Shown here in pieces: positions 2,754 to 59,404 of a stretch of DNA of 64,000 nucleotides. The position numbers were made by a program, and so were the translations under genes. This DNA is from Pseudodesulfovibrio sp. GTDB lineage: Bacteria > Desulfobacterota > Desulfovibrionia > Desulfovibrionales > Desulfovibrionaceae. How positions within the stretch are numbered: position 1 is the stretch's first letter; each line of letters opens with the position of its first letter. Below the pieces are notes generated by a model. The model made no database searches. It saw nothing but the letters and a program-made list of their open reading frames with translations, and was not told where the DNA came from. The DNA lies in NCBI GenBank assembly GCA_016744135.1, contig JADGEX010000001.1, positions 2,119,029 to 2,183,028 on the forward strand, written 5' to 3'.

Positions 2754-3824
2754 ATGACCAAAAAAGCAGAACGCATTTTTGTTAAAGGTAACGAAGCTAT
2801 TGCACGCGGCGCTCTGGCTGCCAAGTGTCAATGTTTCTTCGGCTATCCGATCACGCCCCAGAACGACATCCCGGAATTCATGTCTTCGGAAATGATCAAG
2901 GCTGGCGGCGATTTCGTCCAAGCTGAATCCGAAGTGGCCGCAGCAAACATGCTGCTCGGTGCCGGTGCTACCGGTATCCGCGCCATGACTTCCTCCTCTT
3001 CACCGGGCATGTCCCTGAAGCAGGAAGCCATCTCATACATGGCCGGCTCCGAAGTCCCGGCGGTTATCGTCAACATGAACCGTGGTGGACCGGGTCTCGG
3101 TGACATCGGTCCGGCTCAGGGTGACTACTACCAGTCCACCCGAGGCGGCGGTCACGGTGATTATCGTCACTTCACCTTCGGCCCCGGCACTGTCCAGGAA
3201 GCCTACGACCTGACCATCCGCGCCTTTGATATCGCCTTTGAGCACCGCACACCGGTTCTCATCCTTGGTGATGCCATTCTCGGTCAGATGAAAGAACCCA
3301 TCACTCCGTGGGAACCCGAAGGAGTTGAATCTGAAGGCGGACATGATTGGGCTATCAACGGTCGTGATGACGGTCGCGAAAAGCGTCTCATCAAATCCCT
3401 CTTCCTTCAGGAAGGTGAACTGGCCGAACAGAACAAACATTTGCAAGCCAAGTACGACTCCTGGACCGATCTGGCCGAATGCGAAGAGTTTGAAACCAAA
3501 GACGCCGATCTCGTTATCTGCGCATACGGCTCCATCGGCCGCATCGCCAAATCCGCCGTCCGCAAGTTCCGCAAGGAAGGCAAAAAAGTCGGCTTGTTCC
3601 GTCCCATCACGCTGTACCCGTTCCCGTCTGCACAGCTCAAGGCACTCGCAGACCAAGGCAAGCGTTTCCTGACCATCGAACACAACCTGGGCCAGATGCT
3701 CGACGATGTCCGCCTCGCTATCCGTACAGTGACCGATTCGGACTTCTATCCCATCTATCCCGGCAACCTGCCCACCCCGGACGAGCTCGAGGAGCCAATC
3801 CTCAAAAGCCTGGAGGGTAAATAA
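2754..3824 (+). CDS. korA: 2-oxoacid:ferredoxin oxidoreductase, alpha subunit
   Basis: A 356-aa subunit carrying the pyrimidine-binding and transketolase-like domains of the family. Visible blocks are GYPITPQNDIPEF near residue 25, the AESEVAAANMLLGAG segment containing the conserved glutamate, and TSSSSPGMSLKQEAISYMAG. The C-terminal third (after about 240) matches the transketolase C-terminal domain. The open frame extends upstream to 2703, but the ATG at 2754, directly after korD and preceded by GGGGG, restores the usual N-terminus. It works with KorB, KorC and KorD to decarboxylate a 2-oxoacid with CoA and reduce ferredoxin. The next gene begins at the base after its stop codon. Confidence 0.93.
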   Translation: MTKKAERIFVKGNEAIARGALAAKCQCFFGYPITPQNDIPEFMSSEMIKAGGDFVQAESEVAAANMLLGAGATGIRAMTSSSSPGMSLKQEAISYMAGSEVPAVIVNMNRGGPGLGDIGPAQGDYYQSTRGGGHGDYRHFTFGPGTVQEAYDLTIRAFDIAFEHRTPVLILGDAILGQMKEPITPWEPEGVESEGGHDWAINGRDDGREKRLIKSLFLQEGELAEQNKHLQAKYDSWTDLAECEEFETKDADLVICAYGSIGRIAKSAVRKFRKEGKKVGLFRPITLYPFPSAQLKALADQGKRFLTIEHNLGQMLDDVRLAIRTVTDSDFYPIYPGNLPTPDELEEPILKSLEGK

Positions 3825-8068: not shown

Positions 8069-8229
8069 AACTCTGATGCATTGAATACGCGAAACCCCGA
8101 CACTGAGCAAGCCATGCCCACATTCGAAACACCAAACAGGAATCCGCAAAACAAAAAACGACGTACCACGTTATACACGCAATACGCCGTCCACAAAGAA
8201 TATTTTTCCACTCCGCACCAACACCGCGA

Positions 8230-8350
8230 GGCTTGGGAGAGTGATACAGATGCTCGGCGAAAGGATTTGAGTTTCCCACAGTCGTAGCCTAGCTACAATG
8301 AGGACAGACTCAATCCTTCCAACGACACAGATGCGCCGCTATCGCAAGCC
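8230..8350 (+). repeat. Structured dispersed repeat, copy 1
   Basis: Shares long identical blocks with copies at 11186, 50574 and 59234, including TTTGAGTTTCCC, GAGGACAGACTCAA and GATGCGCCGCTATCGCAAGCC. Predicted folding: an outer stem (GGCTTGGGA with TCGCAAGCC, one mismatch), a middle stem (GAAAGGATTTGAGT with ACTCAATCCTTCC, one bulged T) and an apical hairpin GTAGC-CTA-GCTAC. It ends 3 bp before the purE stop codon on the opposite strand, so purE mRNA would carry its complement right after the coding region. Confidence 0.85.
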
Positions 8351-8353
8351 GAC

Positions 8354-10182: not shown

Positions 10183-10263
10183 GAGTAAATTCCCCCTCTA
10201 TCTGTTTTCGGGATGTACACGGTGTAAGGAAAATCGGTTTTTTTATCAAGGTTGTGATGCCTC

Positions 10264-10380
10264 CAGCGGCTGGGGGAAAGGGAGAACAAACCCTTTGGAA
10301 AGGGTTCTTTCTCTCCCTTTCCCCCAGACCCCCTATCCCTCTCTTTTCCTAAACTTTTTGGTGCCGCTTCGCGGAGAGGG
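10264..10380 (-). repeat. Inverted-repeat dispersed element, copy 1
   Basis: A perfect 16-bp inverted repeat (10270-10285 with 10312-10327) encloses a second one (ACCCTTT with AAAGGGT). Outside it, read on the minus strand, are the CG-rich hairpin CCGCGAAGCGG and the block AAAAAGTTTAGGAAAAGAG. The same order of parts recurs near 19746, 29076 and 59461. Confidence 0.6.
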
Positions 10381-10436
10381 GCATCAAAATACAATGTTTT
10401 GTGGGTATATAAAAATGAATCATTTGTAGAAACCAT

Positions 10437-10993: not shown

Positions 10994-11185
10994 TGTATTC
11001 TCCTGTCTCAATTTGGTTGCAGCAACCCGACACAGGTGCTGTGAATGTTCATTTGTTGAAAATTAGTAATGATTCTCAAATAGAAAATCAAGAACTATTT
11101 ACCACTGAATACAACACAGTGTTCCATTTTGACAATTCACAAAATGCTGACTCTTCAAAAAAATCTCCGACAACCACAGATGTGA

Positions 11186-11306
11186 GGCTTGCGAGAGGGG
11201 TGTAGCTGCTAGGCGAAAGGGTTTGAGTTTCCCACAGCCGTAGCCTAGCTACGGTGAGGACAGACTCAATTCTTTCAACGACGCAGATGCGCCGCTATCG
11301 CAAGCC
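11186..11306 (+). repeat. Structured dispersed repeat, copy 2 (best preserved)
   Basis: The outer stem is perfect here (GGCTTGCGA with TCGCAAGCC). The middle stem is GAAAGGGTTTGAGT with ACTCAATTCTTTC, using two G-U pairs and the shared bulged T. The apical hairpin is CCGTAGC-CTA-GCTACGG. It lies between the terminator of the small membrane protein gene and the rubrerythrin promoter region. Confidence 0.87.
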
Positions 11307-11320
11307 GAGTAACGAAGCAA

Positions 11321-11378
11321 ACAAAAAAAGAACCGCCTTTGTCTGGGAGGAAAGGATGAATATCCCAGACAAAGGCGG
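11321..11378 (-). terminator. Intrinsic terminator of the 54-aa protein gene
   Basis: A perfect 16-bp inverted repeat (11333-11348 with 11363-11378) is followed, in minus-strand direction, by a T-rich run including seven T in a row. It lies 43 bp after the small gene's stop, which supports that gene being transcribed. Confidence 0.88.
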
Positions 11379-11420
11379 CTCAAACCCGCGTGTTAGTGGG
11401 GAGCATTCGCTCCCGGGAAA

Positions 11421-50573: not shown

Positions 50574-50686
50574 AAGCTTGTGTAGCTGGTAGGCGAAAAG
50601 GTTTGAGTTTCCCGCAGCCGTAGCCCGGCTATGGTGAGGACGGACTCAATCTTTTCAACGACGCAGATGCGCCGCTATCGCAAGCC
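50574..50686 (+). repeat. Structured dispersed repeat, copy 3
   Basis: Shares the core with the other copies. The middle stem is GAAAAGGTTTGAGT with ACTCAATCTTTTC and keeps the bulged T. The apical hairpin is CCGTAGC-CCG-GCTATGG, with a G-U pair replacing A-U/G-C. The 5' arm is shortened (AGCTTGTG), so the outer stem is imperfect. Confidence 0.85.
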
Positions 50687-50962
50687 GACTCATGAAACAG
50701 AACCCCCGGTCTCGGGGGCATGAGACCGGGGGATCAAGAGGTGACAGAAGGTTTGGGAAGGTGTGTCTGTATCTTTCTTCAGCGATAGTTGGGGAATCGC
50801 TTGGGATTTGCCTGTGTTGATAATTAGAATCATTCCTAAAAAGACAGATGTTGTCAATACAAAAATTGAACTTATTGAAAAGAGTGGCTCACGCCTGTAA
50901 AAAAAGGCTAGATATGGGTCAAGAAGTGCCGCATGGAATCGTTGATTAATGTTGGGGGAAAT

Positions 50963-57887: not shown

Positions 57888-59231
57888 ATGAATATCCCGG
57901 TTTTCAATTGTAAAAATGCAGATGACGTGATGAAGGCGGTCAAGGATTATGACGTCAGCTTCATTCAGTACTGGTTCTTGGACATCCTCGGTACGTTGAA
58001 GAGTTTTCAGGTTACACCCAATGAGCTTGAGGCTTCCTTTGAGGAAGGCATGGGGTTTGACGGGTCTTCTATTCTCGGTTTTTGCCGTATCGATGAGTCG
58101 GATATGGTGGCCATGCCAGACCCGACCACTTTTCAAATCTGTTCATGGCGTCCTTCCGACAGACCTGTTGCCCGCATGTTCTGTGATGTCGTCAGCCCTG
58201 ATGGTGCGCCGTTCGAAGCTGATTCTCGGTACGTTCTCAAGAAGGTCATGGGGCAGGCTGCCGAAAAAGGGTACACCTTCTACGTTGGACCCGAACTTGA
58301 ATTTTTTCTTTTTGCTGACGATCAGGACACAGAAGTTCTGGATGCTGGTGGATATTTTGATGCTCCGCCGCTTGATCTCGGTAATAACATTCGCCGTGAT
58401 ATTATTTTTGCGCTCGATGCCATGGGTATTCAGGTTGAGTACTCTCACCACGAGGTAGCGCCATCTCAGCACGAGATTGACTTGCGGTATGCAGAAGGCA
58501 TGAGGATGGCCGACACAGCCATGACATATCGTGTTGTGGTTAAGGAAACCGCGCGTAAGCACGGATGCTATGCGACCTTCATGCCCAAGCCGATTTTTGG
58601 TGAAAACGGCTCCGGTATGCATGTTCATCAGTCGTTGTTTAAGAATGGCCGTAATGTATTTTATGATGCCAACGATGAGTATCATCTGTCGTCTGAAGGC
58701 AAGTCCTATATCGCAGGTATTCTCAAGCATTCTCCGGAATTCGTGGCTGTCACCAACCAGTGGGTCAATTCTTACAAGCGTTTGGTTCCTGGGTACGAAG
58801 CACCGGTTTATATCGCCTGGGCGCGTCGTAATCGTTCGGCGCTCGTTCGTGTGCCTATGTACAAACCCGGTAAAGAGAACGCCACCCGCATGGAATTGCG
58901 TTGTCCGGACCCGGCTGCCAATCCGTATCTCTGCTTTGCCGTCCAGCTTGCCGCCGGACTCAAGGGCATGGAAGAGGGCTATGAACTGGCCGCACCGGTG
59001 GAAGAAGATATTTTCTCCATGGATGCCCGTCAGCTCAAGAAGAACAAGATTAAGTCCTTGCCCGGCTCTTTGTATGAAGCCGCCATCAACTTGCAGAAGT
59101 CCAGCTTCATGAAAGAAGTCCTCGGTGAACATCTGCACACAGCCTTGGTCGAAAATAAACTTGCAGAATGGGACGAATACAGCACACAAGTTACCGAATA
59201 CGAGCTTGATAAGTATTTGCCCGTATTATAG
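57888..59231 (+). CDS. glnA: Type I glutamine synthetase (GSI-alpha type)
   Basis: A 447-aa enzyme that makes glutamine from glutamate, ammonia and ATP. The N-terminal GFDGSSILGF, metal/ATP motifs PELEFFLF and HHEVAPSQHEID, and FMPKPIFGENGSGMHVHQSL are intact. Its length and the absence of the longer C-terminal adenylylation region (Tyr-containing NLYDLP loop) place it in the alpha group, which is usually controlled by feedback rather than adenylylation. GGAGGGAAAT precedes the ATG. The stop is followed 2 bp later by an inverted copy of the structured repeat and then by a terminator. Confidence 0.95.
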   Translation: MNIPVFNCKNADDVMKAVKDYDVSFIQYWFLDILGTLKSFQVTPNELEASFEEGMGFDGSSILGFCRIDESDMVAMPDPTTFQICSWRPSDRPVARMFCDVVSPDGAPFEADSRYVLKKVMGQAAEKGYTFYVGPELEFFLFADDQDTEVLDAGGYFDAPPLDLGNNIRRDIIFALDAMGIQVEYSHHEVAPSQHEIDLRYAEGMRMADTAMTYRVVVKETARKHGCYATFMPKPIFGENGSGMHVHQSLFKNGRNVFYDANDEYHLSSEGKSYIAGILKHSPEFVAVTNQWVNSYKRLVPGYEAPVYIAWARRNRSALVRVPMYKPGKENATRMELRCPDPAANPYLCFAVQLAAGLKGMEEGYELAAPVEEDIFSMDARQLKKNKIKSLPGSLYEAAINLQKSSFMKEVLGEHLHTALVENKLAEWDEYSTQVTEYELDKYLPVL

Positions 59232-59233
59232 GC

Positions 59234-59350
59234 GGCTTGTGATAGCGGCTCATCTGCGTTGTTGAAAGGCTTGAGTCTGTCCTTGCCGTACGGAGGTACG
59301 GCTGTGGGAAACTTAAAGCCTTTCGTCTAGAGTTCCACTACTCTCCCAAG
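59234..59350 (-). repeat. Structured dispersed repeat, copy 4 (inverted)
   Basis: Read on the minus strand, the middle stem is GAAAGGCTTTAAGT with ACTCAAGCCTTTC, keeping the bulged T but changing the pair next to it to C-G. The apical hairpin is CCGTAC-CTCC-GTACGG, again with a paired change relative to the other copies. It begins 2 bp after the glnA stop, antisense to glnA, as copy 1 does next to purE. Confidence 0.85.
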
Positions 59351-59404
59351 TTTAATCAGGGAGGTGGGCCTTTGAGAGAAAGTTGCATTTTGAAAGATTT
59401 ATTA

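Follow-up and report, generated by a model that had tools for sequence, protein, structure and literature searches.

A dispersed bacterial hairpin repeat with covarying base pairs in Pseudodesulfovibrio and in rumen Alistipes

Four imperfect hairpins in a stretch of 64,000 nucleotides from a Pseudodesulfovibrio genome (the stretch is called the window and its genome G000 below) are members of a large family of repeated bacterial hairpins, most of which is uncharacterised. The unit of about 120 nt, which is longer in other lineages, folds on one strand into a rod whose base pairs covary. Copies are dispersed, patchy in number between species and sometimes tandem, and sequence conservation falls off abruptly outside the unit. 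In most copies the folded strand points with its 3' end towards the 3' end of a convergent open reading frame (ORF), whose stop codon is either flush with the rod or about 60-90 nt away. We consider the repeat to be probably (roughly 60%) a non-autonomous mobile palindromic element of the MITE/REP/ERIC kind, in which selection keeps the folded single strand.

The window copies had been proposed in a sequence-only reading, and all four were found at the places and on the strands given there, with paired hairpin limits of 8230-8350 (+), 11186-11306 (+), 50574-50686 (+) and 59234-59350 (-). Each copy is an imperfect hairpin (121 nt) and was scored with a covariance model, R1, which is described below. 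Copy 1 (8229..8351, +; 117.6 bits) lies with its 3' end 2 nt from the purE stop codon (AIR carboxylase, PF00731; 8354..8890, -). Copy 2 (11185..11307, +; 126.7 bits) is the best kept of the four, and a closing A.G mismatch at 11185/11307 encloses its paired part. A terminator-like hairpin with a T-run (11323..11381, -) separates copy 2 from the sequence on its right and puts the copy in the class of sites behind a terminator; this hairpin was read from the sequence and is absent from the terminator scan, its loop exceeding the length allowed there. Copy 3 (50574..50687, +; 87.2 bits) has a decayed 5' outer arm, and the orthologous site in the related genome G051 holds three tandem copies with the arm intact in the last. 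Copy 4 (59233..59351, -; 86.6 bits) shows partial arm decay, and its 3' end adjoins the stop codon of the glutamine synthetase gene glnA (57888..59231, +). The window also contains a different repeat of about 115 bp at 10256-10382, with the hairpin GGGGGAAAGGGAGA.../...TCTCCCTTTCCCCC; it has matches in at least 16 of the 36 genus genomes, one of them about 130 bp from a rod copy (L010).

Folding of copy 2 as RNA gave -67.0 kcal/mol, with a z of -7.35 against shuffled sequences, and the corresponding z values were -3.71, -2.98 and -3.11 for copies 1, 3 and 4. For copies 1 and 4 the opposite strand was more stable, by 5 and 8 kcal/mol. The paired differences first pointed out between the four copies were all recovered. 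The middle-stem pair, near a T left unpaired in all four, is G-U twice and A-U and C-G once each. At the apex, copies 1 and 2 share GTAGC/GCTAC, copy 3 has GTAGC/GCTAT and copy 4 has GTAC/GTAC. By themselves, the four window copies carry little statistical weight and are no proof of covariation: double changes occurred in 3 of 42 predicted pairs, and the RNAalifold covariation term was +0.94 (unfavourable).

Paired changes that preserve pairing turned out to be real and significant in larger sets, comprising 19 copies from G000 itself, 102 from the genus and 25 from Alistipes. The own-genome copies (alignment A3) were found by BLAST only and aligned with MAFFT, without being fitted to a covariance model; R1 was built from them. 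Double changes were present in 26 of 49 pairs, compared with 15.8 ± 2.0 in shuffled alignments, and none of 500 shuffles reached 26. The covariation score was 0.323, against 0.146 when shuffled and 0.053-0.088 in controls with slid pairing partners, a comparison which favours the structure because it was derived from the same 19 sequences. Two observations had been named as speaking against a selected fold, namely unpaired changes in further copies and identity through recent duplication. Unpaired changes were present, at 12.8% of cells with the other 87.2% paired, which is far below the shuffles. With identities to copy 2 of only 73-89%, the 11 longer own-genome matches are not recent duplicates.

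For the genus, 137 copies were reduced to 102 distinct ones (set A4) by dropping identical copies as well as second matches to one palindrome on its antisense strand. These were aligned to R1, and APC-corrected G statistics for 8385 column pairs were compared with a tree-aware null of 60 alignments, in which the substitutions of each FastTree branch were dealt to random columns. Thirteen column pairs were significant at E<=0.05 in this alignment, which leans towards the model to which it was fitted. Twelve of them are modelled pairs, and the 13th stacks beside a modelled pair, lengthening the helix outward by one step. The covariance model, search of related genomes and statistics that had been suggested as a check on the fold thus led to significant covariation.

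The Alistipes copies were found with R1 and then aligned with MAFFT. In these, 95.2% of cells pair, and double changes were observed in 32 of 48 pairs, versus 15.3 ± 2.1 in shuffles. The tree-aware test has less power in this set and returned two pairs at E<=0.05, both within the structure. The set holds 25 of 30 copies, since L244 (by eye), L252, L254, L257 and L270 were omitted where simple patterns failed to place both ends. From other genomes, mostly the top-scoring copies were retrieved, which biases the sets towards well-folded copies, and some are orthologous to one another, which limits the independence of the counts.

In long quasi-palindromes one arm can serve as the template for correcting the other, yielding double changes. 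Palindromy might accordingly be restored by templated hairpin-correction mutation and not by selection, as such arm-to-arm events would give the double changes seen here. They would also erase mismatches and wobbles. That two phyla retain the same mismatches and G-U pairs makes this origin of the covariation extremely improbable. Most copies keep the closing A.G mismatch, a G.A mismatch in AGAGUGG/CCGCUAU and a tandem G.A motif in CAGAUG/CAGAUG (core AGAU/AGAU). U-G wobbles occupy fixed positions, and one pair is a wobble in 93 of the 102 genus copies. The apical hairpin CGUAGC...GCUACG sits on an internal loop, CCGCAG/UGAGGA. The unit in the genus starts with GGCUU directly after an A and ends with AAGCC directly before a G, and it is just outside these boundaries that conservation falls.

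The fold seems to belong to one strand. There are 551 G-U cells to 108 A-C cells in the genus set and 123 to 9 in the Alistipes set; with mostly-wobble pairs left out, the genus figures are 188 and 105, one column pair giving 25 of the 105. The '+' strand was the more stable in 97/102 genus copies, 25/25 Alistipes copies and 11/11 phylum stretches, and DNA folding concurred for the two copies on which it was run, the asymmetry being not fully independent of the model that assigned strand orientation.

The rod also occurs as part of larger structures and in other lengths. A leader hairpin (TGGAGCG..GGGTGC/GCACCC..) precedes the rod in 33 of the 102 genus copies, as detected with a simple pattern, and leader plus rod form a recurrent block of about 180 bp in G002, G041, G049, G046, G010 and G007, with sharp ends (query 550-726 or about 2941-3119). 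Among the loci from other members of the phylum, the apex pattern was present in all 19 that were read, with up to 5 mismatches tolerated. Judged by the widest fold stretches, the phylum rods measure about 119-135 nt in 6/19 loci (among them L318, which is poorly defined), 176-188 nt in 8/19 and 201-227 nt in 4/19, and the length is undefined in L321. Their outer arms vary between lineages yet still pair. A uniform length of 178-179 nt for the longer copies was considered and rejected as an artefact of the stretch chosen for folding. Some rods (L347, L348, L349, L351, L352 and L096) contain a nested insert of about 55 bp with the core AAGATCTTGTACGGCTCGAAGACTCGCCTACAATTCACTTAA. It was seen in either arm, mostly adjoining the A-tract of the lower helix, in rods of G045, of G049 and of a Pseudodesulfovibrio MAG. 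Another multi-copy sequence (L163, 218-510) was noted in G002, G049 and G046, where part of it forms arrays with a spacing of about 360-380 bp.

The description of the repeat as a four-copy element holds within the window and not for the genome as a whole, which has about 20 copies. BLAST with copy 2 as query returned 16 places in G000, four being short matches, and a second query added more. With R1, 35 matches were obtained at 21 places, 19 of which are the model's own copies; the surplus of matches over places arises because both strands of a palindrome can match, and the same applies to the match counts for the genus. R1 matches were found in 25 of 36 genomes of the Pseudodesulfovibrio-like genus. 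There were none in 16 genomes from other families of the order, and the phylum search gave none in 16 genomes that share the family but not the genus; the spread is therefore uneven. Across the phylum sample, 41 of 395 genomes and 30 of 246 genera (G000 included) matched at E<=1e-4, partly as longer hairpins, with search filters that lose weak matches. Five rumen Alistipes MAGs, from a different phylum, have 3-19 R1 matches each, and three other genomes among the 294 sampled from the order of Alistipes have weak matches.

Exact-pattern matches that carried names came mainly from Pseudodesulfovibrio, Desulfovibrionaceae and Alistipes MAGs. Matches from Sphingomonas, Devosia, Lamprobacter and a gammaproteobacterial MAG (L099, L105, L106 and L111, in a scan of 22 stretches) have a fold unlike the element and were set aside as chance. 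Five shortened or one-armed copies (L093, L095, L098, L101 and L108) were excluded from the count of full copies. L098 and L101 are shortened with the apex missing, and the deletion in L098 extends from one to the other of the direct repeats GCAGATG in the two arms. On contig C1 of G051, 20 rod copies among the matches listed lie in one arc, from about 2.66 Mb through the end to 0.31 Mb of 3.70 Mb.

The position of the rod relative to genes was strongly polar. Gene ends were counted from mechanical ORFs that were convergent, at least 100 codons long and ended within -25..160 nt of the rod. Such an ORF was present at the 3' side of the folded strand in 86/102 genus and 20/25 Alistipes copies, compared with 42/102 and 4/25 at the 5' side. 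In 26 of the 102 genus copies and 14 of the 25 from Alistipes, a convergent stop codon lay within -3..4 nt of the 3' end (6 and 0 at the 5' end), whereas random points in the same loci had a stop codon at this distance in 20/1783 and 3/472 cases. A second genus group of 36 copies ends 62-91 nt from the convergent stop codon, and several G000 copies were seen by eye to have a terminator-like hairpin adjoining the rod on the side of the convergent gene. In the phylum loci, judged by the widest fold stretches, such an ORF ended within -3..4 nt of the rod in 7/19 (L310, L311, L316, L319, L322, L323 and L328). Such polarity suggests that specific targeting or a strong filter is at work. At purE the stop codon does not stem from the repeat, since the gene ends at the same place in several relatives without the repeat. 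Head-to-head pairs of rods, with 5' ends facing and about 94-210 nt apart, were also observed (L070, L084, L132, L153 and L171).

The copies might instead be host small RNAs or mRNA 3'-end elements, in which the rod is transcribed, acts in stability, termination or regulation, and is kept for that reason. Conservation of G-U pairs and of tandem G.A mismatches is compatible with RNA, and copies adjoin stop codons and terminator-like hairpins. Moreover, ERIC in Yersinia has been reported to affect neighbouring genes by RNA folding (PMC2267715), and relatives of the repeat in Geobacter were named predicted short RNA elements (PMC2700814). Against this, the folded strand runs antisense to the abutting gene, and on the opposite side only about half of the copies have a codirectional nearest ORF (47 vs 53 of 100, counted on mechanical ORFs), which leaves no host transcript that would consistently carry the rod. 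In addition, 11 of the 36 genus genomes have no match and several copies are decayed. We therefore regard a host RNA as an unlikely explanation.

The antisense orientation also recalls integron attC sites, whose structure is conserved beyond their sequence and in which a hairpin lies behind a stop codon with the folded strand antisense to the gene. The hairpin polarity and the flush position of the repeat behind the stop codon correspond to this geometry, and a recombinase acting on the folded strand of an attC-like single-strand site would account for both. It is nonetheless improbable that the repeat is such a site. Integron integrase (TIGR02249) was above its curated cut-off in 0/18 genomes, 11 of them copy-rich, and the weaker matches given by all 18 are of the kind that other tyrosine recombinases give. 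Furthermore, no invariant GTT/AAC box was found at the ends of the 102 copies, and the spacers between those tandem copies that were read are too short for an ORF.

Signs consistent with past movement, and decay of copies, were visible at several sites. Tandem arrays of two and three copies occur in G051 where G000 has one, and four copies spaced 173 nt were found in G045. Decay after insertion has removed the apex at site 1 of G050 and an arm at site 3 of G000. No recent jump was seen in G000, given that 15 of its 19 copies have an orthologue in the G051 stretches fetched and that the same-species genome G042 has an equal 35 matches. In 18 orthologous copy pairs, 34/82 single-sided changes keep pairing, versus about 28% expected with a mild transition bias; four double changes keep pairing and one breaks it. 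Stem positions differ by 5.7% and unpaired positions, including flanks, by 11.4%. Constraint at orthologous sites is thus weaker than between lineages of copies, and a fold held weakly in place and strongly between lineages would be expected if the fold matters for spreading. As a counterpoint, the excess of pairing-preserving changes in these orthologous pairs means that some copies may be kept folded by a host function.

Clean empty sites were found neither at purE nor at two G013 sites, where flanks had diverged or were partly deleted. No target-site duplication was established, as no length or offset consistently stood out in the sets scanned. Equal end 3-mers were present in 3 of 11 phylum copies against 1.0 expected, with ends that are partly set by the fold window. 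The top z scores were 3.2 for the phylum, 3.4 for Alistipes, 5.0 for the genus rods (3/102) and 3.6 for the 33 leader copies (4 seen); they fell at unrelated offsets among many combinations of length and offset and were taken as chance. TNA duplications suspected by eye gained no support from the systematic scan. BLAST against phages and plasmids gave no match for window copy 2 or L319, and viral contigs had 0 matches for two exact patterns; accordingly, no carrier replicon was seen.

REPs are likewise dispersed palindromes rich in GT pairs and often supply the stop codon of a flanking ORF (PMC3733652), which could make the repeat REP-like, with a Y1 (RAYT/TnpA-REP) transposase as its mover. 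The Y1 family PF01797, however, matched in 17/36 genus genomes and was missing from several copy-rich ones, with no match in G002, G006, G041, G049 or G020. As the size and the tag differ as well, mobilisation by Y1 seems very unlikely. The searches for Y1 transposases and integron integrases thus yielded no partner enzyme.

For the preferred reading of a non-autonomous mobile palindrome, we propose that a trans-acting mobility factor would recognise the folded single strand, either as ssDNA or as the RNA of that strand, and would thereby keep the fold. Insertions would survive mainly where genes stay unbroken, and the inserted copies would then decay slowly. A bolder version, which we offer tentatively as possible though doubtful, is a cross-phylum class of mobile hairpins with fixed polarity behind stop codons, the folded ssDNA or RNA form of which would be read by a recombinase or RNA-dependent enzyme other than Y1 or integron integrase. 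The family would represent a structure-defined repeat without an Rfam entry, present in the 30 matching genera of the 246 sampled from one phylum and in Bacteroidota MAGs. With it, one could test clearly whether palindromic repeats spread because their single strand folds, and covariance models will let annotators label such copies.

The element had been thought undescribed, which agrees with Rfam but only in part with the literature. At the gathering score, Rfam 15 gave no match in the window or in six phylum loci; the matches that six own-genome loci had at E<=1 were all sub-threshold and mostly to microRNA models on other hairpins, and were rejected. The 2009 genome paper of G. metallireducens, however, reported that a predicted short RNA element separates dapAB from dapL and recurs at 23 further places (PMC2700814). 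The legend of Figure S1 in its Additional file 4 gives the 24 elements the central palindrome GRCGTAGCGCTGCTACGCC, and similar sequences were noted in G. sulfurreducens, G. uraniireducens and Desulfotalea psychrophila (PMC2700814). GRCGTAGCGCTGCTACGCC is the apex of the present repeat read on the other strand, and both elements are intergenic and multicopy. Two loci from the phylum search (L318 and L321) carry GACGTAGCGCTGCTACGCC, an exact match to the Geobacter central palindrome, and the window copies have a variant of it with another loop. Covariation, strand, stop-codon polarity and wider spread are not stated in the passages of that paper that describe the elements, and the likeness drawn here is that of the central palindrome only (PMC2700814). 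We found no later study of the Geobacter elements in the open-licence PMC literature and no literature on this repeat in Desulfovibrio or Alistipes.

Several known families resemble the repeat more broadly, and it shows the MITE features of short length, multiple copies and inverted ends. ERIC, YPAL and bcr1 are dispersed intergenic repeats of about 100-170 bp, most with a predicted common fold, and the E. coli ERIC has been described as one long stem-loop (PMC2267715). They are like the present repeat in size, dispersal and fold, as judged by description; they are listed there for single host groups, whereas its core is conserved in two phyla. The BRE of Betaproteobacteria, a dispersed repeat of about 90 bp, is similar by description only, being usually intergenic and sometimes present several times per locus (PMC3110155). 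REPs of the GTAG/CGTC type share dispersal, a fold, common GT pairs, sites between ORFs (often convergent or unidirectional ones) and the ability to supply a stop codon (PMC3733652). They are 20-40 bp long with a terminal tag, in contrast to the present repeat, which is about 120 nt or longer, has no invariant end tag and is not tracked by Y1. Dispersed palindromic repeats are therefore well known as a kind; what is unusual here is a core found in two phyla, a fold on one strand and a polarity towards stop codons.
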